Source of the DNA: Planctomycetaceae bacterium
Lineage (GTDB): Bacteria > Planctomycetota > Planctomycetia > Planctomycetales > Planctomycetaceae
DNA: 46,429 nt
Direction: 5' to 3'
NCBI GenBank assembly: GCA_024742875.1
Contig: JANSXP010000055.1
Span: 1-46,429, forward strand
Each line of letters starts with the position of its first letter. Within the stretch, counting starts at the first letter, position 1. The translations under genes were made by a program, and so were the position numbers. Below, in pieces: positions 11,114 through 23,785 of the stretch. A model generated the notes under the pieces. It saw only the letters and a program-made list of their open reading frames with translations, ran no database searches and had not been told where the DNA came from.

Positions 11114-12034
11114 TCAGGGCTGCGTCAATTGGCAAATCCGATTTGCTGCCAGACTCGCTGAATCGTTCAGGCAGCTGTCATCGGTGCCACAGCAGGAGCA
11201 GCCGGAGACCATGTTTCGGTTGAGTAGATGACCAATGACCATCAACAGGCCACCCAATGGTGTCCACCATGCAGCGTAAGTGGCAAAGAACCCCGCCTGG
11301 GCGACAGGTACCTCAGACGTCGGCGTTGCTGAGTCGGAGCCGGCTGCTGCGGCACAGTGGGCACACTCTTCATCGGTGCACACTGGTGATTTGTCTGTGG
11401 CATTCAGGGATGCGGCTGCCTCGGATGCGCCGTGGTCACAGCCTTTTTCACAGCCGGCGGGCATGCCGTCTTCTTTTGTCGCTGCAGTTACCGTTTCTTC
11501 TTCGCAATACTCACACTTCTCTTCGCAGCATGCCGGGCCGTCTGTCGCTGCCGCCGCCGTCTGCGATTCTGTTGCGCAGTGCGTGCAGTTCTCATCGCAG
11601 CATGCCTCACCGTCGGCCGCTGCGACCGCCCGTGAGCCCGCTGCTGCTTCACAGGTTGGGCAGCATTCTCCCGACAGTCCGAAAGCGGCAAACGTAATAA
11701 TGGTTAGTCCGGAAGCCGCGATGCCTGCCGGCAGCAGCCTGCCGTGGCGTTTCCAGCCGGGAACAAAGGCTGCCAGGCCAATTAGAAAACAGGCCCCCGC
11801 CATCCACTTGTGAAAGGCCTCGTCTGCCAGAAAGCTGAGTCCCATCGCCGGCAGGAACCCGATGACAAAAGGCATCGCCGCGCAGTGGATGGCACAGGCG
11901 ACGGATGCCGTCACACCCAGCATGTCCCCCCAGCCTGAGGCCGCAGACGGGCTCCTCGTCGCCGATTCCTCTGACGTCAGCAGAGGCAGCGCGCCAGAAA
12001 ATTCTGATGTGATTTGGGGTTCCGAGACGCTCAT
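11114..12034 (-). CDS. MerC-like membrane protein with tandem cysteine-repeat loop
   Basis: 306 residues from the ATG at 12034 (the frame extends to 12226, but those residues look non-coding). The N-terminal half matches MerC-type proteins: a first helix with CAIHC (47-51) and further helices to about 120. Before the last helix (about 245-272, ending GHLLNRN) lies an inserted loop of about 120 residues with four degenerate repeats roughly 24 residues apart: CCDENCTHC (145-153), CCEEKCEYC (169-177), GCEKGCDHG (194-202) and VCTDEECAHC (218-227). A CC/CxCC-rich tail follows (279-288). MerC proteins move Hg2+ or other soft metals; the loop looks like a metal sponge. It follows the NicO-type gene by 55 bp in the metal island. 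Confidence 0.75.
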   Translation of the reverse strand: MSVSEPQITSEFSGALPLLTSEESATRSPSAASGWGDMLGVTASVACAIHCAAMPFVIGFLPAMGLSFLADEAFHKWMAGACFLIGLAAFVPGWKRHGRLLPAGIAASGLTIITFAAFGLSGECCPTCEAAAGSRAVAAADGEACCDENCTHCATESQTAAAATDGPACCEEKCEYCEEETVTAATKEDGMPAGCEKGCDHGASEAAASLNATDKSPVCTDEECAHCAAAAGSDSATPTSEVPVAQAGFFATYAAWWTPLGGLLMVIGHLLNRNMVSGCSCCGTDDSCLNDSASLAANRICQLTQP

Positions 12035-12089
12035 CGTTGGTTCATCCAGGGGACGCAGTTTGGAGGCCGGTATTCTGGCTGGCTTGTCA

Positions 12090-12863
12090 TCAAATGACCA
12101 GCCGCAACCCCGTGGCAACGCCGACAAGCAGCACAATGGCCGCTCGCATGTGGGCCCATGGCAGGTGGCTGAAGCGGCCAGTGCCCGTTTTGAGCCGATT
12201 ACCGAATCGCTGCACCAACAGTCCAACCAGGGTCAGCGAAGTGGCGATTCCCACCGCAAACAGGCCAATGGAAAGATAGGCTTCCACGGCCGACCCGTGT
12301 GCCATTCCGGTCAGGTACGCGGCGACGGCGGACGGACAGGGCAGCAGGCCAAAGGCCGCTCCCAGCAGCATACTCACCGAGTAGCCTCCCGCCGTTTCCT
12401 TTTGAGGCTCACTGGCAGATGCTTCCGCAGGATGGTCGGCGTGATCATGGCTGTGGTGATGGTCGTCACTGTGATCGTGGTGGCTGTGTTCGTGTTTGTG
12501 CAGGCTGCAGTTGCAGCGGGCGGGCTCTTTCCTGAACTGAGCGCGGTACATCATCCACAGGCCAACTGCCATGACCAGCGTGGAACTGATCGCTCGCAGC
12601 CAGAATTTGACACTGTCAACGTTGCTCTCTCCATCGCCTGCCACGGCGTACTGCGCCGCATGGACAATGAACGCGATGCCCATCAGTGACAGCGAGTGGC
12701 TGACCGCGCTGGATAACCCCATCAGCAGCGGGTGAATAAAACTGCGTCGATGCTCGGTCAGGTAGACCAGCATGGCCGTCTTGCCATGGCCAGGCTCCAG
12801 CGCGTGGATGGCTCCGAGAAAAAAGGCGACCCCTAGAGTGATCTGGTGACTATGAGTGTGCAC
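12090..12863 (-). CDS. NicO/RcnA-type metal exporter with His-rich loop
   Basis: About 257 residues, NicO family (nickel/cobalt efflux, RcnA-like). The first helix contains AIHALEPGHGKT, the family signature. About six hydrophobic segments are visible. Between the two halves lies a cytoplasmic loop with HKHEHSHHDHSDDHHHSHDHADH-type sequence, typical of metal-binding loops in this family. The second half carries GLLPCPSAVAAYL. The start is uncertain: I used the GTG at 12863 just before HTHSHQITLG; an ATG at 13019 or a GTG at 13031 would add an Arg-rich extension. None has a clear Shine-Dalgarno sequence. It sits between a DUF2946-like gene and the MerC-like gene on the same strand. The substrate could be Ni, Co or Zn. 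Confidence 0.8.
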   Translation of the reverse strand: MHTHSHQITLGVAFFLGAIHALEPGHGKTAMLVYLTEHRRSFIHPLLMGLSSAVSHSLSLMGIAFIVHAAQYAVAGDGESNVDSVKFWLRAISSTLVMAVGLWMMYRAQFRKEPARCNCSLHKHEHSHHDHSDDHHHSHDHADHPAEASASEPQKETAGGYSVSMLLGAAFGLLPCPSAVAAYLTGMAHGSAVEAYLSIGLFAVGIATSLTLVGLLVQRFGNRLKTGTGRFSHLPWAHMRAAIVLLVGVATGLRLVI

Positions 12864-13091
12864 GGTAACTGCCCAGTGAGAGTGGATTCGATCAGACCAA
12901 AAACGGCAGCCGCCTGCGGCTCTGGTGTGGGTCTTCGCACGGCCCGGCAACAGGGACAAACGTGTGTCGCTGCCTGTTGTGGCTGGAAAACGCCACGTCG
13001 GTCGTGCGACAGGCGGCATCAAACAACGCACCGAAGCTCAGCCTGCCCGGGCAATCCCGGTAGAATCAATCCTGCAGCGAAGCGTGGTGCA

Positions 13092-13586
13092 TCAGACGGC
13101 CGGCGGGCCTCGTCCTGGACAGCGGTATGCGGCGGTCAGCGCGGGGGCTGATTCCGTGCGGCAACTGAGTGTGTCTGTGAAATCACAAACCGGCACACAG
13201 ACTTCGAAACCTTCAGCGGTGGCAAGTGCGAAGGCCGCCTGACAGATACGGCAGTTGTGAGAATCATGTGGCGCTGAATGGTCTGGATCAGACTCGTCGA
13301 GCGGTGAGTCGCCTGCAGTTCGGTCGTCGCTTTGACGGCCGTTCGTTGATGACGCTGTCGACTGACCGTGAGCCTGGCAGAACCGGCAGTGTGGGCACGC
13401 CACAGCCGAGGTTTTTTCAGCGGGATGTGTGTCTGTCGCCCCCTGCCCTTCCGTCACGACCGCAGAGCAGCCGCAGTGCTGGCCGCAACCCAGGTGCAAT
13501 ACGGAAGTTGCCGGCAGCAAAACAAGCTGCAGCAACACCACGCACGGGGCGGCAAGGCGAACGAGTTTGTGGAATGACTTTGACAT
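13092..13586 (-). CDS. DUF2946-like secreted Cys/His protein (copy A)
   Basis: 164 residues. A hydrophobic signal/anchor (about 12-32, VVLLQLVLLPATSVLHLG) is followed by a Cys/His-rich linker (CGQHCGCS, CPHCRFCQAHG). Next come the motif NCRICQAAFALAT and an end CPGRGPPAV. A small Cys/His secreted protein ending in an RGPP motif is what I associate with DUF2946, a family of unknown function often near copper or zinc genes. Two paralogs sit at 16166-16603 and 16844-17275. The start at 13586 was chosen because a block before it is shared with both paralogs; the frame stays open to 13751. It heads the unit with the NicO and MerC-like genes. Confidence 0.65.
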   Translation of the reverse strand: MSKSFHKLVRLAAPCVVLLQLVLLPATSVLHLGCGQHCGCSAVVTEGQGATDTHPAEKTSAVACPHCRFCQAHGQSTASSTNGRQSDDRTAGDSPLDESDPDHSAPHDSHNCRICQAAFALATAEGFEVCVPVCDFTDTLSCRTESAPALTAAYRCPGRGPPAV

Positions 13587-13614
13587 CAGAGTGCAGCAGA
13601 CTCCGAATCCGACC
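13587..13614 (-). promoter_or_regulatory. Conserved block before DUF2946-like copy A
   Basis: On the minus strand this reads GGTCGGATTCGGAGT and ends TCTG directly before the ATG. It shares the 15-base core with the block before copy B (16604-16634) and most positions with the block before copy C (16816-16843). It may be a control site for transcription or translation, or coding sequence if the genes start further upstream. Confidence 0.35.
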
Positions 13615-13754
13615 AGTTCCCCAAGTCTACGAGCGGAGTGTGAAAAAACGCAATGTATTCCGGCAGAAAATTGCGACCTGTGAACCTGCTGACGCTCGGG
13701 CAGCAGGGCTGCCGAGGGACTTCCGAACACCGCAGAGGCTGTGATGACCATGAT

Positions 13755-14336
13755 TTATGACGCACGGCAGCATTCCTGCAGGTCATTAATCAGGCTCCGC
13801 CACGCTGTCGCATACTCTCTGCCAGGGATCACGGCTGTCAGCCCTCCGTCCCATTTTCGCAACGTCTGTTCCCGATACGCAACACCCAGTTCTTCGCCAA
13901 CCTGGTATTCATAGTGGCCGATCCAGCTAAGCAGTTCGAATAGCAGGGCTTCGCACTGCGTTCGACGGTCTGCTGCGGGTTCTGTCCACTGTGACAGGCT
14001 GGCAATTCGCCAGGGAAGTGGAGTTGGTGGCCATGCGGCACAGAAAACGGGCGCGGGGTCAAACCGTGGCAGAAAGACGCCGCCACGGTCATCACTGCCC
14101 AGCAGCACCCCAAAGCCTCTCAGCAGGACCGTGCCTCCACCTGCGATCTTTCGCTGATAAATGCTGCCATGCTCCTTCAGGTCGGATTCTGCTGCGATGC
14201 GTTCAAATCCCAGATGCAGCAGCCAGTTGCCCTGTTTTCGAAGTACGTCCTGACCCCAGCACCAGCACTACTGATTCAGCAGCGTCAGCAGCCGGTGCTG
14301 GGTGAACGGTTCCCGAATTGCGTCAAGCAATGACAT
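13755..14336 (-). pseudogene. 'WCWGQD' protein interrupted by in-frame TAG
   Basis: From the ATG at 14336 one frame reads through to 13755 (193 residues) with a single stop, TAG at 14268-14270 (codon 23). Right after it comes CWCWGQD, matching LWCWGQD of the intact protein at 20236-20907. The alignment continues to the C-terminus without another stop: for example SWIGHYEYQVGEELGVAY here against [18 protein letters not shown] there. The stop aligns with a Gln, and the flanking codons are CAG TAG, so one C-to-T change explains it. Either the copy is recently inactivated, or the UAG is read through, or translation restarts downstream at an internal start (the ATG at 14108 leaves 117 residues). 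No function is recognised. Confidence 0.6.
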
Positions 14337-14461
14337 AGAACGCTCTGTCGTCAGGTCTTTTGCCGGTGCTGGGTTGTGATGTGCGGGCTGAAGGTGCGGG
14401 CGGCATCATCAGCCTACAGTTCAACTCATTTCGCAAAGCACGGCAAAAGGAAGAACACTCT

Positions 14462-15823
14462 TTAGTGGTGATGTTCCGGAGCGCCAACGGCCACGATACT
14501 GTCCGGCGAGCCTCCGACAGTGAATCTGGCCACCACTTTCATCTGCGGCATCGCCATGACGTTGAGAATGCCTGTGCCAGGTTCTGTGAAAATCGCGTGA
14601 CGTCCGTAGGCGTCGAACGCGATGGCGTGATGCCCGTGGTGTCCTTCCACCCGACTGGCGCCCACGGGAATGGTGGTCTTGACGCGGGCGTCGGAGAAAT
14701 CGCGATCCTTGTTGGGATCCAGCTCTACAATGGTCAGCTGCTCCTGCACGTCACTATCTGCCTGTGTGCGATCCTGAAACAGGAATGCGTATCGGCGGCC
14801 CATCGACATGACTGTCTTTGGTGTCATCAGCCTGAGTCCGTCCGCCAGGTCAATCGACAGGCGGATGACTGCCGGCGTCTGAGCGGCTGCGTTGATCATG
14901 CACAGAGCTGACTGCGCGCCGGACCCGGTTGAGCACAAGACCCAGTTTCGGCTGTTTTCAAACGCTCCGGTCCGCAGTGGCTTGTCTGTTTCCTCGTCCG
15001 TTCCGAGTGTCAGGTGATTGACCTTCACGGTATCGGCATTCAGGCTGACCGCACTGTCCACATCGACCCAGCAGATCCCGTCGGCCGGTGCAAAGAACGC
15101 TCGGCCGGAGTTGGACGTGGCCCCGTGAATCACGCCTGTGGGCAGCTTGAAGGAGTAGGCGATCTGATCCTTGTCGCGATCTGTCCGTACGACGTCCACC
15201 CGTCCGGCGTTTGGGCCTCCACCATCGATCCATGTGCTGTAGGCCACAGATTCGGTGGGAGCCGCCATCGTGATGTGGTTACCACCGCCCGGGAAGAAGG
15301 CGCTGGCGGCCGCATTTTTGTTTTTCAGGCTGACGGGGATGGCGCGGGTAAAGCCATTCTTTGTGTCATTGGCCAGGTAGAATCGACGGTTGTAAACGTA
15401 AACGTGCGCTGGGTTGCCCTGCTCGGCATCCAGTTTCGCCAGGCGAACGGCCGGTTTGCTGTTGTATCTCCAGTGGGTGTGGTTGCCGTGTGGCTCTTCG
15501 ATGACGCCGGTGTCGATCGCCACCCAGCCGCTTTGATGTTTGCCGCCGTCGTCATCCCGAATGCCGACCATCAGCATGCCGTCACAGTGCTTCATCTGCA
15601 CCAGATCCTGACGTTCTGCATCGAGTTCAGGGAAGCCGTTCACCCAGCCGCGTGAAAGCCCCCATTTGGAGGACATGGTCAGATCGGCGTACGAAAGTTT
15701 ATCGGTGTCACGATCCTGCCAGAAAATCCGCGTCGCGATTTTTCGATGCTGACCGCAGCTTTCGGAGGTCGCCGTCAGCATCGCTGACAGGCTCAGGACG
15801 AAAACAAGAGTGTATTTTTGCAT
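14462..15823 (-). CDS. Secreted beta-propeller, AztD-like zinc chaperone candidate
   Basis: 453 residues from the ATG at 15823, which opens a clean signal peptide (MQKYTLVFVLSLSAMLTATS). The upstream open frame to 16135 is not convincing. The body looks like repeated beta-strand blades of about 45-50 residues, not WD40. Potential metal sites are HGNHTH (112-117), MKHC (77-80), the segment VIHGATSNSGRAFFAPADG (about 231-249), EGHHGHHA (393-400) and a terminal HHH. The order (His-Gly segment, ADG segment, late His cluster, then a blade ending VGGSPDSIVAVG) recalls AztD, a periplasmic propeller that hands zinc to a solute-binding protein. This is my inference from memory of the family. No ABC transporter lies nearby. 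Confidence 0.6.
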   Translation of the reverse strand: MQKYTLVFVLSLSAMLTATSESCGQHRKIATRIFWQDRDTDKLSYADLTMSSKWGLSRGWVNGFPELDAERQDLVQMKHCDGMLMVGIRDDDGGKHQSGWVAIDTGVIEEPHGNHTHWRYNSKPAVRLAKLDAEQGNPAHVYVYNRRFYLANDTKNGFTRAIPVSLKNKNAAASAFFPGGGNHITMAAPTESVAYSTWIDGGGPNAGRVDVVRTDRDKDQIAYSFKLPTGVIHGATSNSGRAFFAPADGICWVDVDSAVSLNADTVKVNHLTLGTDEETDKPLRTGAFENSRNWVLCSTGSGAQSALCMINAAAQTPAVIRLSIDLADGLRLMTPKTVMSMGRRYAFLFQDRTQADSDVQEQLTIVELDPNKDRDFSDARVKTTIPVGASRVEGHHGHHAIAFDAYGRHAIFTEPGTGILNVMAMPQMKVVARFTVGGSPDSIVAVGAPEHHH

Positions 15824-16165
15824 CAGAAGACCTGTTGTGTGTAGTTGTTTGGGGCACGCTTTTTGGGGGCCCGTGAGTGGAAGTCTTTCCGCCTTGAGAG
15901 GCCGAGAATCCCGCAGGTCTCGTCCTTCTCTTCCTCGGCCGCTGCCGGGGGCGAAAACGCATAGAAGGCTGCGTGAGTTGACAGGGAGGGGGCAACCGAC
16001 GCTGACGATGAGGATCGCTGCGAAGAGCCGTCGCACGAAAGCACTGGCGACGATCGCTGGCAGGGATCGTCGGGCGATGCGTACAGCAGCGACCTGCCGA
16101 GCTGCTGGTGTCAAGCGTTCTTTCGGAAACGGCACGGTTGACCGCCGCTGTCTCGCATTCTGATG
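15824..16165. other. Intergenic region before the propeller gene
   Basis: About 340 bases between the DUF2946-like copy B and the propeller gene, both on the minus strand. Several frames are open through it but none has a convincing start, composition or family. It probably contains the propeller gene's leader; no clear promoter or terminator was found. Confidence 0.3.
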
Positions 16166-16603
16166 TCAGCAAGTGTGCGTGGGCGGTCCGCGTGCGGGGT
16201 GATCATGCGGCGGTGTTTGATCCGGAAAGTCCGACTCCACCGCTGGCGGGACTTGCACGCAGGCACGAATTACCGCCAACACCAGCGGGGGGATTCGCGT
16301 GGCCATAGAGAACGCCGCGCGACAGATCTGACACGAATTCGCGTCGGAGCGGGAGTCTGTTGGGGTGTCGTCAGGTTGCTGATGACGTGAGTGCAGCGGG
16401 CATTGACATCGCAGATCGGCGAAACCCTGTTTCGCCATCGGTTGCCCGTCGCTGTCTGACGGCTCTTTCTGCTGTTGCCCGCTGGGTGAGTGGCGGCAGT
16501 CACAATGGTCGTGCAGCACGTACGTCAACGGTGCCAGCGCCAATTGCAGGGCGGCGAAGAAAACGATCCGGAGTTTGCCCGGTTGCTGCGTGAACGTGAA
16601 CAT
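16166..16603 (-). CDS. DUF2946-like secreted Cys/His protein (copy B)
   Basis: 145 residues. A hydrophobic segment (about 14-32, VFFAALQLALAPLTYVLH) is followed by HDHCDCRH, a Gln/Ser/Asp-rich linker, a second Cys pair (CQCPLHSRH), the motif SCQICRAAFSMAT and an end HPARGPPTHTC. This is the same plan as copies A and C, though they are similar only in these parts. The start at 16603 was chosen because the shared upstream block ends there; the frame is open to 16645. It is the first gene of the left arm and is transcribed away from copy C across a 240-bp divergent region. Confidence 0.62.
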   Translation of the reverse strand: MFTFTQQPGKLRIVFFAALQLALAPLTYVLHDHCDCRHSPSGQQQKEPSDSDGQPMAKQGFADLRCQCPLHSRHQQPDDTPTDSRSDANSCQICRAAFSMATRIPPLVLAVIRACVQVPPAVESDFPDQTPPHDHPARGPPTHTC

Positions 16604-16634
16604 CAGAGCGTTTGCAGTCACTCCGAATCCGACC
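16604..16634 (-). promoter_or_regulatory. Conserved block before DUF2946-like copy B
   Basis: On the minus strand it begins GGTCGGATTCGGAGT, identical over 15 bases to the block before copy A, and ends CTCTG next to the ATG. The spacing to the start is 31 bases here against 28 for copies A and C. Its role is unknown. Confidence 0.35.
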
Positions 16635-16815
16635 GCGTCCAACATTAGCCGACCGACGCCAGAGCGTCAGCGCCCGCCTGACGTATTTGGCCGATTTTTC
16701 GTAAAGCAGAATGAACGTCCAGGCGGCAAAGAACGGGCGATCGCGGGTGACTTTCAAAGTGCCGCGTCAGGAATGGATTGCCACAGCAGCATTCCGCCGG
16801 TACAGTTCCCAGCCT

Positions 16816-16843
16816 GGTCGGACCCGGAATGCATTGTATTCTG
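16816..16843 (+). promoter_or_regulatory. Conserved block with palindrome before DUF2946-like copy C
   Basis: Begins GGTCGGA and ends TTCTG directly before the ATG at 16844, as in copies A and B. Inside it, GAATGCATTGTATTC (16827-16841) is a 7-1-7 inverted repeat with six of seven pairs matching, the layout used by Fur-family regulators such as Zur. A related half-site (GAATACATTG) is visible further upstream of copy A. No regulator gene is in the window. Confidence 0.35.
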
Positions 16844-17275
16844 ATGTCCTCGAATCTCCAAAAATTCACTCGTCCGCTTCAACGTCACGCGGTCACGATT
16901 CTTGTCGTGCTTGTGCAGCTGGCCGTGGTTCCTGCCACCTGCCTGCTGCACGTTTGCGGTGACGCAGCCAATGCAGGCGGCGTTTCGGGCGGAACGCACG
17001 CACGGTGCTGCTGCCATGGCCACGTGGAACGCTCTCAGCGGCCGGCACCGCTGTCAGATGCCACGGGTGAGTCTCCGACTCCGGAATCCGGTCATCCTCA
17101 GCAGGCCCCGCACTGCTGTCGAATCTGTGCAACGGCATTCGCTCTGATCACCATGGACGCAGCGCCGGACTGGATACCCACGGTGGAACTCCTCCACCAT
17201 GCCCCGTTGATTTCCGTGCAGGCTGCGGAAGCCCCAACGGTCTCCAGTTGCCCCGGTCGTGGCCCGCCGGCTTGA
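16844..17275 (+). CDS. DUF2946-like secreted Cys/His protein (copy C)
   Basis: 143 residues. A hydrophobic signal/anchor (about 15-36, AVTILVVLVQLAVVPATCLLH) is followed by VCGD, a Cys/His cluster (ARCCCHGH), a Pro/Ser-rich linker, the motif HCCRICATAFALIT and an end CPGRGPPA. It shares its plan and several motifs with copies A and B. The ATG at 16844 is preferred by the shared upstream block; the frame is open back to 16778. It is the first gene of the right arm, 297 bp before the first CobW GTPase. Confidence 0.65.
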   Translation: MSSNLQKFTRPLQRHAVTILVVLVQLAVVPATCLLHVCGDAANAGGVSGGTHARCCCHGHVERSQRPAPLSDATGESPTPESGHPQQAPHCCRICATAFALITMDAAPDWIPTVELLHHAPLISVQAAEAPTVSSCPGRGPPA

Positions 17276-17572
17276 TGCGGGATGTGGGAACAGATCGGAG
17301 ATCCTGTCCAATACTGCTGGGCAGGCGCAAAATGTCCGTATAACGCATCGTTTCGCTTGCGTCTGCCGTCCTGACTGACACGCTGCCCGTGCAGCTCGCG
17401 GCGATGCGACGTCCGTCTGATGTTCTGCCGTTCTGCTGTTCCCCAGGCATCCGCATCCGCTTTTGCTTCCGCCCTGTCCGCCGGGGTGGGGGACGAAACG
17501 GGCGGCCGGGCGCACGCCACGTTATTCGCCCCACGTTTTCTTTCTTACGAAACACCATCTGCGGAGATATTC

Positions 17573-18862
17573 ATGCAGACACAGGAACCACCATCCGGCC
17601 GACTGCCGGTCACCGTGCTCAGCGGTTTTCTGGGAGCCGGCAAGACCACGCTGCTGAACCATGTGCTGGCCAATCGAGAGCAGATGCGAGTGGCCGTCAT
17701 CGTGAATGACATGAGCGAAGTCAACATCGACGCCGCCCTGGTGCGTGACGGCGGTGCCGATCTGTCGCGCACCGATGAGCAGCTTGTGGAAATGAGTAAC
17801 GGCTGCATCTGCTGCACGCTGCGTGAAGACCTTTTGGTCGAAGTCTCCCGTCTCGCGCGTGAGGGACGGTTCGATTACCTGCTGATCGAGTCCACGGGAA
17901 TCAGTGAGCCGCTGCCGGTTGCCGAGACGTTCACTTTTGAAGATGAAGAAGGCACGAGCCTGTCCCACGTCGCGCAGCTGGACACAATGGTGACAGTGGT
18001 CGACGCGGGAAACTTCATGAAAGACTTTGGTTCGTGGGACGATCTGGTTGATCGGAAGATGGGGCTGAGCGATGAGGACGATCGCAACATCGTGGATCTG
18101 CTGGTGGATCAGGTCGAATTTGCCGACGTCATCATGATCAACAAGACGGATCTGGTAACAGCTTACGAACTGGAGCAGCTGGAACAGATCATTCGCCGAC
18201 TGAATCCCAATGCGGAACTGATCACGTCCACGGAAAGCCGTGTTCCCCTGTCGAAGATCATGGGCACGGGACGTTTCCAGCTGGAGCAGGCCGAAGAAAT
18301 GCCGGACTGGCTGGCCGTTCCACGCGGTCAGGAGGAAACAGAGACAGAGGAATACGGCATCTCCAGTTTTGTCTATCGCCGCGATCGTCCTTTCCATCCG
18401 CAGCGTCTGTCGGACGAGATGCACAAAGACTGGGAGACCGGTGTGTTTGCCGGCATCCTCCGCAGCAAAGGGGTGATGTGGATCGCCTCGCGGCACGACT
18501 ACGCCTACGACTGGTCACAGGCCGGGTGTTCCATTCGTATGGATCCCGCCGGACCGTGGTGGGTCTCAACGCCCGAGGACGAATGGCCCGAAGACGAACA
18601 GGAAGTGGCCGATATTCGCGCCCGCTTTTCCGGAGCGTACGGAGATCGTCAGCAGGAACTGGTGATCATCGGGCAGGAGCTGAATCGCGAGCGAATCGAG
18701 AGCATTCTGGATCAGTGTCTGCTGACCGACGACGAGTTCCAGCGTGGACCGGACGCCTGGGCACTACTGGACGATCCTTTGCCGCCGGTGGAACTGGAAA
18801 CTGAGGAACCGGAAACCGAAGAACCGAACGACGAATTCGAAGCCGGGGAGATGCCATCATGA
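17573..18862 (+). CDS. CobW/COG0523 family metallochaperone GTPase (copy 1)
   Basis: 429 residues. The G3E GTPase domain has a P-loop [10 protein letters not shown] (17-26), the metal-binding GCICC motif (77-81; CxCC), ESTG (106-109) and NKTD. A CobW C-terminal domain follows (about 290-400, with FHPQRL and a Trp-rich [16 protein letters not shown]), then an acidic tail. Proteins of this family use GTP to deliver metal, often Zn, to target enzymes. I chose the ATG at 17573, which has GGAG about 8 nt upstream; the frame is open to 17420. Its stop overlaps the flavoprotein start by 4 nt (ATGA). A paralog lies at 20916. Confidence 0.95.
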
Positions 18863-19986
18863 CGACTTCTGAAACCGCGGACTACGACGTCATTGTGGTG
18901 GGCGCAGGCGCCGCGGGCGTCGGTGTGGCCATCACGCTCAGGCACGCGGGCATCGAGAACTATCTGGTGCTGGATCGGCACACCGTGGGCGCCTCCTTTG
19001 CGGCGTGGCCGGCCGAGACTCGGTTCATCACGCCCTCCTTTCCAAGCAACTCCATCGGAATGCTCGATCTGAACTCCATCGCCATTGGCGTCTCTCCGGC
19101 GTACAGCCTGGAGGTGGAGCATCCCACGGGACAGGACTACGCGGCCCATTTGCGAGGCGTGGCAAAGTTTTTTGAGCTGCCGATTCGTGAAGGGGCTGCC
19201 GTTCAGCGGATCGTCAGGACCGACGATGTTTTCCAGGTGGAGCTCGACGGCGAAACACTGAGCGCCAAACACGTTATCTGGGCGGCCGGTGAGTTTCAGT
19301 ATCCACTGTTGGCCGGCTTTCCGGGCAGTGAGCTGTGCCGGCACACCGCGACCGTCGACAGCTATGAGCAGATGCCGGGAGACGACGTCATCATTATTGG
19401 AGGCTACGAAAGCGGAATTGATGCTGCCTACCATCTGGCGTATCACGATCGCAGCGTCCGCCTGTTTGATGCCGGCTGTCCGTGGGATCAGGAAAGTTCC
19501 GACCCCAGCGTCGCTTTATCCACCTACTCCATGGAACGCATCCGGGAAGAGTGGTTTGACGAATTTGTTGAGCTGTACCCGGATTCTCCGGTGACGTGTG
19601 TGGCCAAAACAGATGACGGGTATGAAGTCACGGTGGGTGGCGAGGAGACGTTTCACACCAGCGTGCCGCCGCTGCTGGCGGGTGGGTTCACGGGCAGTCA
19701 CCAGATGGTTGCCGATTTGTTTGAGCAGCGGGATGATGGATTTCCGCTGCTGAGCGAAAACGACGAGTCGACGAAGGTGCCTGGCATTTTTCTGTGCGGC
19801 CCCGCGGTGCGTCATCAGAATCACGTTTTCTGCTTTATTTATAAGTATCGACAGCGTTTCGCTGTGGTGGCCAAAGCCATTGCCACATCGCTGGGGCTGC
19901 CCGCCGAACAGCTGGAAAGCTATCGCCAGTGGGGCATGTATCTGGATGACCTGTCCTGTTGCGGAGAGGAATGCGCGACATGTTGA
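18859..19986 (+). CDS. FAD/NAD(P)-dependent oxidoreductase with Cys-rich tail
   Basis: 375 residues. An FAD-binding GAGAAG (15-20) and a second dinucleotide-binding [13 protein letters not shown] (middle) place it in the flavoprotein pyridine-nucleotide oxidoreductase group, resembling the YpdA/CzcO-like proteins. No CxxC active-site pair of the thioredoxin-reductase type is visible. The protein ends [10 protein letters not shown] (366-375), a probable metal- or thiol-exchange site matching the CCxExCxxC repeats of the MerC-like protein at 11114-12034. It overlaps the CobW gene by 4 nt and the next small gene by 7 nt, so it is translationally coupled within the operon. The substrate is unknown. 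Confidence 0.85.
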
Positions 19987-20234
19987 GAGGAAGCGAACGG
20001 TTGTCCCTTGAAGAATCCGCAAACGGTGAGTTGTCGCCTGTGCAGGGCCGTACCTCTGTGCTGAGCCGCGTGCTGCGTTTGGAATGGCTGGGGCAGATGG
20101 CGGCCAGCTTGTGCTGGATGGCCAGCGTGTTCTGCTATGGGCTCAATTCCGCGGGTGACTGGCTCCAGCTTGCCGCCGCCGGCGGGTGGCTGCTTGCCAA
20201 TCTGGCATCTGTGGCGACAGCAGGAGATGGGTGA
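19980..20234 (+). CDS. Small two-helix membrane protein in CobW operon
   Basis: 84 residues with two hydrophobic segments (about 37-54, GQMAASLCWMASVFCYGL, and 61-80, LQLAAAGGWLLANLASVA). The ATG at 19980 is preferred because a GGAGAGGA lies upstream with about 9 nt spacing; ATG 19971 and TTG 19959 are too close to it. The start overlaps the flavoprotein end by 7 nt, and the stop precedes the next start by 1 nt, so it is tightly coupled. No family is recognised. It may anchor or assist the flavoprotein or the WCWGQD protein. Confidence 0.6.
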   Translation: MLRGSERLSLEESANGELSPVQGRTSVLSRVLRLEWLGQMAASLCWMASVFCYGLNSAGDWLQLAAAGGWLLANLASVATAGDG

Positions 20235-20235
20235 A

Positions 20236-20907
20236 ATGATCACGGCGCGATCGTCCGGTCGGAAGGGGCCGGCCGGCAATCGGTCTGGTCAGGGCTGGTG
20301 CCTGCCCCGCACCGTGCAAAACTTTGGCTTGAAGCTGACCGCTCAGCAGTTGTGGTGCTGGGGACAGGATATTGAACGCCGGGATGGCAACCTGCTGATG
20401 CAGTACGGGATGACGCAGCAGCGCTACGCAGGCCGTGACGAACGGTCCACCTGCTATCGGCTGGACGACGGTCAGACCGTGGTCTGCCTGTGGGGATTCG
20501 GGCTGTTCTTCGGCCAGCAGGACGTGGGTGGCCTGTATTTGGGGCGGTTCGATTTCTGTCCGCAATGGACGGATACGGCCGCGCTTTCTCAGGCCGTCCA
20601 TCGATCGGCCGACCTGCCGACGCTGGGTCGACCGCGCGGTCGACAGCAGTGGGAGAGTGCCCATCGCCTCTGGCGCAACCTTCAACTCTGGATTGCGGAT
20701 TATGAACTTTGGGTGCGCGGCGAAGCGGGGGCGGTCTGGCGGCAGGCGTGTGTGAAATCCTGGATGCGTCCGTTTGTGCGCTGCGGCCAGATGGCCGCAG
20801 CGTGGCGGTTTCTGGCTCGACGCGGATGGCAACAGCGCGATCAGCGACTTTCACAAACTCTTGGCAGGTACATGCTGCCCGCTGCCGAACGTCGATCGGC
20901 CCATTGA
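20236..20907 (+). CDS. 'WCWGQD' protein, intact copy
   Basis: 223 residues, no signal peptide, Trp- and Arg-rich. Landmarks are [21 protein letters not shown] (about 40-60), [31 protein letters not shown] and [20 protein letters not shown] do not recognise a family. A paralog at 13755-14336 in the left arm carries an in-frame stop. I chose the ATG at 20236 because AGGAG lies about 9 nt before it; the ATG at 20227 is directly adjacent to that AGGAG. It lies 8 bp before the second CobW gene, so it is likely cotranscribed with it and may be its client or partner. Confidence 0.7.
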
Positions 20908-20915
20908 GTCCAACC

Positions 20916-22127
20916 ATGAAACGACTGCCTGTCACAGTGCTGTCCGGATTTCTCGGAGCTGGCAAGACCACACTGCTCAATCACGTGCTGACCAACCGCG
21001 AGGGGCTGCGTGTGGCGGTCATCGTCAATGATATGAGCGAAGTCAATATCGACGCTCAACTGGTGGCCGGCGGAGATGCAGCGCTGAGCCGGACTGAAGA
21101 GAAACTGGTGGAAATGACCAACGGGTGCATCTGCTGTACTCTGCGGGAAGATTTGCTGGCGGAAGTGGCCGCGCTGGCCACTGAAGGTCGCTTTGACTAT
21201 CTGCTGATCGAATCCACCGGCATCAGCGAGCCCGCGCCGGTCGCCGACACGTTCACGTTTGCGATCTCCGAAGGTCAGGAACTGTCTGATCTGGCAGATT
21301 TGGACACCATGGTCACTGTTGTGGATGCGGCCAATTTTCTGCACGATCTGCGTGTGGGCAAGGACCTGCATAGCGTCGGACAGGCGGCCGACGAAGATGA
21401 CGAGCGAACGGTTTCGGACCTGCTGACCGAACAGGTCGAGTTTGCCAACGTGATCATTCTCAACAAGACAGACCTCGTTGACGAGGAAACGCTGGCCACA
21501 ATCGAAGCCTACCTCGAACAACTCAACCCCTACGCACTGCGGCTGCGTTCGGCGTTTGGGAAGGTCTCGCCCGCGAAGATCATGGGCACCCAGCGATTCG
21601 ATTTTGAAGTGGCCAAACAGAGCAAGGGCTGGCAACTGACGCTGCGGGAGGACGGAGCCAGCGAAGCCGAAGAATACGGCGTGAGCAGTTTTGTGTTTCG
21701 GGCCCGCAAACCGTTTCACCCGCAACGGCTGCATCAGCGACTGTACAAAGAGTGGGACGGTGTACTGCGGAGCAAAGGCTTCTTCTGGCTCTCCACGCGG
21801 CTGGACAAGATTGGTGTCTGGTCACAGGCTGGCTGTGTGGCCCGGCTGGACTTCGGAGGATTCTGGTGGGCCGCCGTTCCTCGCGAGCACTGGCCGCCTG
21901 GCTTCGAAGGGGAGAGTGATAAGAACTGGGACCCGCTAGTGGGGGACTGCCGTCAGGAACTGGTCTTCATTGGCATCGGCATGGATGAACCAGCCATTCG
22001 TCGCTCGCTGGAGGAATGCCTGCTGACAGATGAGGAACTGGCGGCCGGCATCGACACGTGGCTGCGTCTGCCCGATCCTTTCCCCCAGTGGGACCTCAGC
22101 GTGGAAGATGCGCTCGCCGCTCGCTGA
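20916..22127 (+). CDS. CobW/COG0523 family metallochaperone GTPase (copy 2)
   Basis: 403 residues. P-loop [10 protein letters not shown] (10-19), the metal-binding GCICC (70-74), ESTG and NKTD are all present, with a CobW C-terminal domain containing FHPQRL. It is clearly paralogous to the protein at 17573-18862 along its whole length but lacks the acidic tail. The ATG at 20916 gives a P-loop close to the N-terminus, as is normal; the open frame to 20709 overlaps the previous gene. The family delivers Zn or another metal at the cost of GTP. Two copies in one operon suggest two clients or two metal states. Confidence 0.95.
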
Positions 22128-22176: not shown

Positions 22177-22263
22177 TCCCTGGTTCTGCGCCGAAAATGT
22201 CCTCAAGCGACTGATTCGGCTGCTGATCGTTCCACAGTCCCTGCGGTGTGATTCTGAGCTGTC

Positions 22264-22286
22264 AGTTCGACAAATTGTCACGAACT
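22264..22286. promoter_or_regulatory. Inverted repeat upstream of ECF sigma gene
   Basis: AGTTCG (22264-22269) and CGAACT (22281-22286) flank a palindromic GACAAATTGTC core (22269-22279). It lies about 75-95 bp upstream of the sigma-factor start, where an operator or promoter element would be expected. The outer and inner repeats are offset by half a base step, so it may be two overlapping sites. Confidence 0.35.
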
Positions 22287-22358
22287 GGCCAGATATTTGT
22301 CCCCCGGCATCCACTTTCCGACAATCACATTTGGAGACCTGACGCGGCGAGAACCACC

Positions 22359-22886
22359 ATGGACGCACGATCCCTGTTTGAAATCCTGATTCGAGAGAAC
22401 ACGGACATGCTGGTGGCCTACCTGCGTGCCGGTGTGCGCGACGCTCATGCGGTGGATGATCTGTACCAGGAGACCGTCCTGACGGCCTGGCGGCGACTGG
22501 ACGACTACGATTGCGAGAAGCCAATCGGTCCGTGGCTGCGTGGAATCGCCGGAAAGCTGATGCTGGCCTTCTATCGGCGTTCGGCCCGTTCCGCTCGTCC
22601 ACTCACTGAAGAGTCGCTCGCGTGGCTGAACGATCGTTTTTCGGAAATCCACTCGCGCCGCGGCGACACATTTCAGGAAAAACTGGCCGCCCTGCGGGAG
22701 TGCGTCTCGGCACTGCCCGACACCTATCAGCGGCCCATTCATCTGCGGTTTTCTGAGCAGCGTTCTTTGTCCGAAATCGCCAGCATCCTGAACCTCGCAC
22801 GGGAGACACTGAAAAAGCGGATGTCGCGCGGCAAAGCAAGACTGGCCGCCTGTCTGGAAACCAAACTCAAGCAGGAACCAGCCTGA
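22359..22886 (+). CDS. ECF-type RNA polymerase sigma factor
   Basis: 175 residues. Region 2 (about 5-75; AHAVDDLYQETVLTAWRRLDDYD) and region 4 (about 115-165; LPDTYQRPIHLRFSEQRSLSEIASIL, then ETLKKRMSRGKARL) are present and nothing else, as in ECF sigma factors. The ATG at 22359 gives the usual length; the open frame continues to 22248 but has no family support. The stop overlaps the start of the next gene by one base, so the two are coupled, as is normal for a sigma factor and its membrane anti-sigma. The stimulus is unknown. Confidence 0.92.
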   Translation: MDARSLFEILIRENTDMLVAYLRAGVRDAHAVDDLYQETVLTAWRRLDDYDCEKPIGPWLRGIAGKLMLAFYRRSARSARPLTEESLAWLNDRFSEIHSRRGDTFQEKLAALRECVSALPDTYQRPIHLRFSEQRSLSEIASILNLARETLKKRMSRGKARLAACLETKLKQEPA

Positions 22887-23785
22887 TGAGTGTCAGTGAC
22901 GAACAGTCAGACGATGACGAACTGCGGCAGAGCTTTGTGGAATCACTTTTGATAAGCGTCAGTGACGTGCAGGATCACTCTGTGCGAATTCGCCGAGCGA
23001 TGAATGCCCTGCCGTTGAGCGTTGCGGCGACAGAATCGCCCACCGGCCGTTCATCGCGCGGCCTGCGATGGGCGGTGACCACGCTGTCCGTCTGTGTGGC
23101 ATTGGCACTGGGCCTGATGCTGCCGGCTGGCGGATCTTCTCCGGCGCTGGTCGCTGTGGAGCGTTCTCTCAAGGTGGCCGCAGAGAAGATGACGCGGCGC
23201 TATCAGCTGCAGGTCGACGCTCGCACACTGCTGGGCACCGCGCGGACGATTGATAACGATCTGTACGTGCAGGGGCATGACCGATTTGCGCTGCGACACC
23301 CTGGTTTGTTGCCTGGACGAGACACCTGGCTGGGACGTCGCGGTGACGAATTCTGGGTTGTGCCTGCTGCTGGCCCTGTGCTGCAGGGAGACCGCACGGT
23401 GCTCAGTCGCTGGCTGAGCGAACGTGGTGAACTTGATACGCCCTACCTGCATGTGTCGACAATCCTCAGTCGTATGCACTCCGGCGGATTTCAGCTGCAG
23501 CTTTTGCAGGATGAGTCGGTGCAACTGCCTGACGGCAGCACCGTGTTGTGTCAGCACATTCAGGCTCAGCAGACGTCGCCGATCAAAGGGGAACTTCCCG
23601 TGACGATCAAACTGTGGGCCTCACGCGCGACCGGCATGGCAATCAGGCTGACGGCTCGCTGGGATTTGGCGCCCGGCCAGCCCGGACGAAAGTCTGTGGT
23701 GCTCACTTACCTGTCAGATGAGCCGTCACTGTCTGCCGAATGGTTCACGCCCCAGGCACACCAGCCGTCGCGACTTCGAAAATAG
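22886..23785 (+). CDS. Membrane-anchored anti-sigma candidate with LolA/RseB-like domain
   Basis: 299 residues. A short acidic cytoplasmic part (1-58) is followed by one transmembrane helix (about 63-82), then a periplasmic domain. That domain (about 95-290) has the long beta-strand pattern I associate with LolA/RseB-type lipid-sensing folds (RYQLQVDAR... and the later GGFQLQLLQDE, PVTIKLWASRATGMAIRLTARW). Coupling to an ECF sigma gene by a 1-nt overlap makes an anti-sigma role likely. The cytoplasmic part is short and lacks a recognisable zinc anti-sigma motif (HxxxCxxC), so binding to the sigma factor is not proven from sequence. Confidence 0.6.
   Translation: MSVSDEQSDDDELRQSFVESLLISVSDVQDHSVRIRRAMNALPLSVAATESPTGRSSRGLRWAVTTLSVCVALALGLMLPAGGSSPALVAVERSLKVAAEKMTRRYQLQVDARTLLGTARTIDNDLYVQGHDRFALRHPGLLPGRDTWLGRRGDEFWVVPAAGPVLQGDRTVLSRWLSERGELDTPYLHVSTILSRMHSGGFQLQLLQDESVQLPDGSTVLCQHIQAQQTSPIKGELPVTIKLWASRATGMAIRLTARWDLAPGQPGRKSVVLTYLSDEPSLSAEWFTPQAHQPSRLRK

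Follow-up and report, generated by a model that had tools for sequence, protein, structure and literature searches.

Three CruR-type leader candidates at the heads of the units of a putative zinc-handling island in a planctomycete

We analysed a stretch of 46,429 nucleotides (nt) from a Planctomycetaceae bacterium (GenBank assembly GCA_024742875.1, contig JANSXP010000055.1, positions 1 to 46,429 of the forward strand), called here the window, which is contig C12 of a host genome of 8.18 Mb with a completeness of 98.1%. Its positions 11,114 to 22,127 hold an island of metal-protein genes, which on balance we read as a zinc-handling island composed of three co-directional units, with a CruR-type leader, an arrest peptide, at the head of each. 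The units are NicO-MerC, AztD, and ZigA1-flavoprotein-WCWGQD-ZigA2, and one small exported Cys/His protein (leaders A, B and C, respectively) precedes each of them (Table 1). That the island handles zinc is very likely from its gene families and their context, and the Cys/His proteins are likely to be arrest-peptide leaders; zinc is a possible ligand of the leaders, judged solely by the genes downstream. The first-pass annotation of this DNA had described two arms of named genes diverging from 16,604–16,843 and two families, WCWGQD and a DUF2946-like one, common to both arms, and the sequence and the listing of open reading frames (ORFs) agree with it in these respects.

The leaders and their likeness to CruR

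Leaders A, B and C have in common a hydrophobic N-terminus ending in QL...P...LH, a Cys/His-rich middle, a CXXC motif, and an RGPP tetrapeptide 1–4 residues from the end. They contain 8–13 Cys and 8–9 His, and the spacing between CXXC and RGPP is 43 residues in each of them. No other called gene of the window contains R[GA]PP. The layout is that of CruR (Bp2923), an exported DUF2946 protein of 145 residues that has CXXC at 90–93 and RAPP at 139–142; according to the portion of PMC9426467 available to us, the distance between CXXC and R[A/G]PP is fixed in CruR homologues at 45 plus or minus 1–2, and CXXC is named there as a copper-binding motif. Leader C is similar to CruR in length (143 versus 145 residues), in its export signal (judged here by hydropathy), and in the positions of CXXC (92–95 versus 90–93) and R[A/G]PP (139–142 in both), and the leaders in general are similar to it in the CXXC–RxPP distance (43 versus 45) and in their position at the head of a unit with a long gap behind them. 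In contrast to CruR, which is copper-responsive, carries RAPP and stands ahead of a gene for a TonB-dependent transporter, the island leaders carry RGPP, have zinc-type genes downstream, occur in three copies in this one island and score weakly as DUF2946 proteins.

According to the available text of PMC12992588, RAPP and RGPP give robust translation arrest, CruR shows arrest in vitro, and no tetrapeptide is more strongly excluded across many phyla than RGPP; the paper also reports small exported proteins with RAPP or RGPP upstream of metal genes. Zinc, CobW and ZigA are not mentioned in that text. This class and CutF, a DUF2946 protein (PMC9973294, in the part available), are like the leaders in being exported Cys proteins with a proline-type C-terminus encoded ahead of metal genes, but CutF has a CxxxC motif and a stem-loop over the next start, and no such fold stands out in the island gaps. 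The same part of PMC9973294 remarks on CzcI and on nickel/cobalt-linked CutF-like proteins, and in Caulobacter the DUF2946 gene CC2720 adjoins czrCBA (PMC4176598, in the part available).

We scanned six-frame ORFs of loci longer than 5 kb for CXXC, 38–52 residues, R[GA]PP and at most 14 more residues, and obtained 34 unique matches, compared with one and one for two scrambled motifs. The match in locus L093, with a spacing of 49 and no hydrophobic segment, was rejected as spurious. When the spacing was narrowed to 42–46 and shorter loci were included, 34 ORFs were found, with spacings of 43, 44 and 45 in 24, 8 and 2 of them; this set includes L029, a locus shorter than 5 kb that is absent from the wider scan, and is without L093. 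All 34 have a hydrophobic segment, as judged by hydropathy only, and the distance from this segment to CXXC varies widely. In 31 of 33 cases the next gene shares the strand of the ORF. Three of the 34 come from the window, 11 from 8 loci fetched for holding such proteins, 7 from 5 of 17 ZigA-anchored loci, 10 from 7 of 80 WCWGQD-anchored loci, and 3 from 3 of 16 further loci, whereas 117 kb of unrelated host-genome stretches yielded no leader-type ORF. The host genome encodes five leader-type proteins, three of them in the island, and in five Poribacteria loci (L051, L054, L055, L061 and L084) leader-type ORFs occur together with ZnuA. Counts of the whole tetrapeptide in called genes of the loci say little, since the gene caller misses most leaders.

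The fixed CXXC-43-RGPP layout, the hydrophobic N-terminus and the position at the heads of units fit arrest-peptide leaders better than they fit capture proteins. The capture of metal outside the cell by the Cys/His proteins, as first proposed, is therefore not upheld. By analogy with CruR, the Cys/His region and CXXC of each leader would sample metal during synthesis and export. At low metal, a stall of the ribosome at RGPP, close to the C-terminus, would allow the downstream unit to be expressed, whereas in the presence of metal the stall would be relieved and the unit shut off.

Leader-type ORFs were also seen in other surroundings. In L154, L155, L157 and L163 they lie near genes for a MoxR ATPase, a transglutaminase-type protein, a His-rich lipoprotein and an ArsP-type permease, a possible metal cluster. 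In L150, L153, L155, L161, L162 and L163 a leader is followed by a DUF1559 pseudopilin-like protein, several of these loci also encoding a propeller of the pyrroloquinoline quinone (PQQ) type and a small lipoprotein; AztD is present too in L155, L161, L162 and L163.

Zinc families of the island and their partners

The third unit encodes two GTPases with CobW matches in Pfam, which belong to the ZigA family, one scoring above and the other just below the family cut-off. ZigA1 and ZigA2 fall into separate, well-supported clades, indicating that the pair is old. Their family score, and the znu-type and Fur-family neighbours in some loci, are those of the ZigA/YciC subfamily of COG0523 (PMC2770081, PMC13339975), from which the island differs in having two old paralogues with flavoprotein and WCWGQD partners, a combination not found in the available parts of these two papers. 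In the available parts of PMC6689063 and PMC13339975, relatives of ZigA and AztD are part of zinc-scarcity systems. Two of the three CobW matches of the host genome are in the island, while the genome's one Fur-family gene, two ABC-3 clusters and one ZIP gene are all outside it.

The predicted structure of the propeller (predicted local distance difference test, pLDDT, 89.1) had nine AztD chains as its top matches in a fold search (E 2.1e-14 to 2.5e-11); the best match to any other protein had E 1.6e-8. A 15-row propeller profile matched only two PDB sequences at E up to 10, both of them AztD (E 1.5e-6 and 0.0092), while an earlier 5-row profile matched nothing among PDB sequences at 0.01. The profile alignment pairs HGNHTH of the propeller with HGDHRD of P. 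denitrificans AztD, whose site 2 consists of His99, His102, Asp104 and the C-terminal His, and site 1 of His124, His167 and His218 (PMC6689063, in the part available). All 15 rows retain the site-2 residues His112 and His115 of the propeller; at position 117, 12 rows have His and 3 have Asp, and the C-terminal His is present in 9 of 15. His140, His183 and His233, kept in 14 of 15 rows, appear to correspond to site 1 according to the profile alignment and spacing. Thus, fold, profile and retained zinc-site histidines support well the assignment of the predicted propeller as a divergent AztD, although it is only 12–16% identical to the zinc chaperone and reaches just 11.8 bits with the NCBIfam AztD model, far under the cut-off of 400. 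Unlike the AztABCD system, the island contains no ABC-3 (aztABC) gene, the two ABC-3 clusters being elsewhere in the genome. A second AztD-like propeller of the host genome (L160, G000:C163:99456-100853) keeps the site-2 histidines and has Gly, Gly and Ser at the site-1 positions.

The WCWGQD protein belongs to an unnamed family. In a homologue scan with one genome per species, 102 stretches were obtained, 88 of which are relatives, and the best 80 of the 88 were analysed; they span Planctomycetota, Poribacteria, Chloroflexota, Acidobacteriota, Actinomycetota and other phyla. Trp40, Cys41, Trp42, Gly43, Asp45, Asn52, Leu54, Tyr74, Arg104, Tyr156 and Glu157 are invariant in 83 rows. The predicted model is confident (pLDDT 89.9, predicted template modelling score 0.87), and a Foldseek search with it against the PDB gave nothing at E 0.001 (best E 0.89); sequence comparison with Pfam, NCBIfam, PHROGs and PDB sequences gave no match. 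As detected in the 80 loci with hidden Markov models built from these loci, the partners of the family are CobW (58 loci), the flavoprotein (21), ZnuA (14), the Fur family (14) and FeoB-like proteins (11), and 66 of the loci hold at least one of CobW, ZnuA, ABC-3, Fur, FeoB-like, flavoprotein and AztD. Of the 58 nearest CobW genes, 55 share the strand of the WCWGQD gene and 53 are within 3 kb of it. The CobW partners form one ZigA-like group and one distant group, the latter often with a WD40 neighbour; WD40 and znuABC are neighbours of COG0523 subfamily 5 (PMC2770081, in the part available). As far as the model goes, WCWGQD is a family unmatched among solved structures and a recurrent neighbour of COG0523 GTPases. 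An in-frame TAG immediately ahead of the CWCWGQD motif interrupts the left copy; a homologue in a genome of the same genus (L152) has no stop. In 13 loci between L051 and L112 (cluster 3), a small protein of about 86 residues without a Pfam match recurs near the distant CobW group and WCWGQD.

Of 58 relatives, 15 have ZigA at 1e-90. In a survey of 294 planctomycete genomes, in which scoring was limited to the best first-look candidates, ZigA was found in 34 genomes, WCWGQD in 11 and AztD in 13. ZigA and WCWGQD occurred together in 9 genomes, compared with about 1.3 expected (Fisher p 6e-8, a value that ignores the relatedness of the genomes), and were at most 3 kb apart in all nine. ZigA is missing from two of the WCWGQD genomes, G164, which has AztD about 4 kb off, and G343.

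The flavoprotein matches PDB 3d1c, a flavin-containing putative monooxygenase of S. aureus, over its full length including the SCC tail (E 4.9e-71). The tail reads SCC or TCC followed by two more Cys in 22 of the 23 family rows above 200 bits (two places being listed twice), and the remaining row, L046, is cut off before it. While whole-length similarity and the tail are shared with 3d1c, the link to zinc, which we infer, comes from the gene context. A FeoB-like protein stands beside the flavoprotein and WCWGQD in 10 of the 80 loci (L038, L052, L057, L058, L082, L088, L106, L113, L114 and L117), often with ZigA, and is a candidate zinc importer; an eleventh FeoB-like locus, L092, has a weak FeoB match and no flavoprotein. 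The protein of L038, the sole one scanned against Pfam, has GTPase and Gate domains, and scores well below the cut-off of the FeoB model (TIGR00437, 107.9 bits against 315.65). In the window the small membrane protein occupies the place of the FeoB-like protein, and a search of the host genome for such a transporter, which had no positive control, gave no match. The FeoB-like transporter and, like it, the flavoprotein with its Cys tail can be added to the candidate zinc-handling proteins.

Judging by their families, the AztD-like propeller would hold zinc outside the cytoplasm, ZigA1 and ZigA2 would deliver it to client proteins, and NicO and MerC would import or export zinc or a related ion; the Cys-tailed flavoprotein and the WCWGQD protein may assist ZigA1 and ZigA2.

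The modules recur in relatives. In the same-genus genome, AztD, ZigA1, the flavoprotein, the small membrane protein, WCWGQD and ZigA2 are on one strand of one contig (L024 and L042), and on another contig (L152) leader-NicO-MerC is flanked by unrelated genes, and a WCWGQD gene lies farther along the contig. In a genome of the same family (L026), a leader, DUF1559, AztD, NicO, MerC (77.9 bits), ZigA and WCWGQD are on one strand; the flavoprotein was not found at this locus. These one-strand sets and the separate L152 module indicate that the modules are conserved and that the mirror is a local arrangement, so the mirrored layout itself does not hold as a conserved feature. The CobW-flavoprotein-WCWGQD neighbourhood, for which a comparison among planctomycetes had been proposed, proved to be conserved and to reach beyond them.

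Control of the units and alternative readings

The ZigA upstream regions of 12 loci among L042–L121 were inspected, and 10 of them match three TTGCA repeats (spacings 6 and 12, at most two mismatches); the leader is absent from all ten. In the 80 loci, with palindromic sites counted twice, TTGCAA-N5-TTGCAA was found 24 times versus 6 in the reversed control, and the three-repeat form 24 times versus 0. The former pattern presumably resembles the Nur box of Streptomyces. A stricter three-repeat form occurs once each in four of six genomes searched whole and in neither of the other two, which include the host genome. In the host genome, the TTGCAA-like pattern with one mismatch is rarer than its reversed control (32 versus 81), and a match near an ABC-3 cluster was dropped, as it lies inside the coding sequence of a solute-binding protein. 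Since ZigA loci with TTGCA repeats lack the leader, and the window has no excess of the two-repeat form, the data suggest that control by leaders may take the place of a Fur-type operator in the island.

Zur-type scans of the 80 loci, in which palindromic sites count twice, gave 8 matches versus 2 in the reversed control for the cyanobacterial consensus and 28 versus 2 for the long gamma one, and no support for the short gamma (10 versus 25) and Bacillus (2 versus 6) ones. Poribacteria locus L060 has a perfect match to the canonical Zur box 157 bp upstream of a gene that is AztC/ZnuA-like (209.9 bits with AztC, for which the cut-off is 350). In Ktedonobacter loci L068 and L073, a palindrome three mismatches from the canonical Zur box is just ahead of WCWGQD, and L073 has a second such palindrome ahead of a Fur-family gene. 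Scans for promoters (3 versus 2.1 expected) and terminators (15 versus 9.2) were not used. The trafficking of zinc (or copper) proposed by the first-pass annotation can thus be narrowed to zinc for the effector genes, given the ZigA family, the AztD fold with its zinc histidines and the Zur box of L060, while its capture component finds no support.

Several observations weigh against a zinc island under leader control. The RNAs of the three gaps fold no better than shuffles (z -0.52, 0.05 and 0.15), and C-over-G bubbles exceed the 95% background for leader B only. No operator was recognised in the island; TTGCAA-N5-TTGCAA, the sole operator pattern scanned in the window, occurs 8 times in the window versus 20 expected. 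Leaders are not obligatory, being present in only 7 of 80 WCWGQD loci and 5 of 17 ZigA loci; 14 of the 80 WCWGQD loci are without any partner sought, and AztD, which accompanies ZigA in 6 of 13 planctomycete genomes, is without it in 7. Leader C scores 16.2 bits with DUF2946 (PF11162), under the cut-off of 23.7, and A and B have no match at E 0.1. Of 10 relatives scanned, 3 pass this cut-off and 9 have some match at E 1. The original label "DUF2946-like" is thus weakly supported. We do not claim formal membership for the leaders, which by analogy likely work like CruR. Finally, the known leaders of the CruR kind with a demonstrated ligand sense copper.

In a somewhat unlikely alternative, the leaders are arrest peptides that sense copper, or nickel/cobalt, and couple the expression of zinc chaperones and transporters to another metal. 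CruR and CutF sense copper (PMC9426467, PMC9973294), CutF-like proteins that have His-rich motifs only are encoded ahead of nickel/cobalt HupE/UreJ genes (PMC9973294), and CXXC is called a copper-binding motif (PMC9426467), all according to the available parts of these papers; moreover, one unit of the island starts with NicO. However, the units encode the zinc families ZigA and AztD, and leader-type ORFs stand beside ZnuA in the five Poribacteria loci.

If the island is a zinc island in which the Cys/His proteins are secreted capture or buffer proteins and control is by a Fur-family repressor, the export and high Cys and His content of these proteins would be explained, as would the TTGCAA-type boxes in related ZigA operons, the Fur-family gene of the host genome, and the Zur boxes or Fur-type palindromes of some WCWGQD loci. 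Such proteins would not need RGPP near their end at a fixed distance of 43 residues from CXXC, a spacing that hardly varies while the rest does. Furthermore, the island has no TTGCAA-type box, and CutF-like proteins, whose degradation on export is rapid, went undetected in whole cells (PMC9973294, in the part available), which together make this reading improbable. That the units detoxify excess metal, with the ZigA genes as passengers, is very unlikely: MerC and NicO are resistance or efflux families, but AztD, NicO, MerC, ZigA and WCWGQD are co-directional in L026, and ZigA and AztD relatives belong to the zinc-scarcity systems noted above.

Returning to a zinc island with CruR-type leaders, we tentatively extend it, at somewhat less than even probability, to three zinc-sensing counterparts of CruR, each of which would gate its own zinc unit by RGPP arrest and replace the TTGCAA-type operator of relatives, beside WCWGQD, a fold family without a solved-structure match that would work with COG0523 GTPases across many phyla. 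The open-access literature searched, supplements not covered, contained no description that we recognised of WCWGQD, of a FeoB-like zinc importer with ZigA, or of a zinc-responsive CruR, so a zinc-sensing leader of this type may be undescribed there. If this reading is true, three arrest leaders on zinc genes, in a phylum distant from those of the cases studied so far, would turn the reading of metal supply at the ribosome into a more general scheme. Leaders A–C would then be three natural replicates, differing in sequence and sharing the same 43-residue ruler, and WCWGQD gives COG0523 GTPases a recurrent neighbour with a confident model unmatched by solved structures.

Island features and neighbouring genes

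Gene starts in the island were chosen from the sequence, and that of the NicO gene was placed by comparison with L152 and L026.

Table 1. Features of the island (window positions; cut-offs in bits).
Feature	Position	Strand	Basis or remarks
MerC-like membrane protein, Cys repeats, 24 Cys in all	11114..12034	-	PF03203 80.7 bits (cut-off 27.6)
NicO-type transporter, His-rich loop	12090..about 12863	-	PF03824 38.1 bits (cut-off 27.7); homologues in L026, L152
Leader A (candidate), exported Cys/His protein	13092..13586	-	CRIC, 43 residues, RGPP, then 2 residues; heads NicO-MerC, gap 228 nt
WCWGQD family, left copy, interrupted	13755..about 14300	-	in-frame TAG at 14268-14270
AztD-like beta-propeller (predicted)	14462..15823	-	fold, profile, site-1 and site-2 histidines
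Leader B (candidate)	16166..16603	-	CQIC, 43 residues, RGPP, then 4 residues; heads AztD, gap 342 nt
Divergent intergenic region between leaders B and C	16604..16843	.	sequence and ORF listing
Leader C (candidate), 143 residues	16844..17275	+	CRIC 92-95, RGPP 139-142; heads ZigA1 unit, gap 297 nt
ZigA1, COG0523 zinc metallochaperone GTPase	17573..18862	+	NF038288 611.2 bits (cut-off 600)
Flavoprotein with 10-residue Cys-bearing C-terminal tail	18859..19986	+	PF13738 (Pyr_redox_3) 307.7 bits; PDB 3d1c
Small membrane protein	19980..20234	+	homologues between flavoprotein and WCWGQD in 11/80 loci
WCWGQD family, intact copy	20236..20907	+	conserved family, predicted fold
ZigA2, second ZigA-family COG0523 GTPase	20916..22127	+	NF038288 582 bits (cut-off 600)

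Behind ZigA2, at positions 22248-23785 of the window, there are two ORFs whose translations read like a sigma factor of the extracytoplasmic function type and a partner protein.

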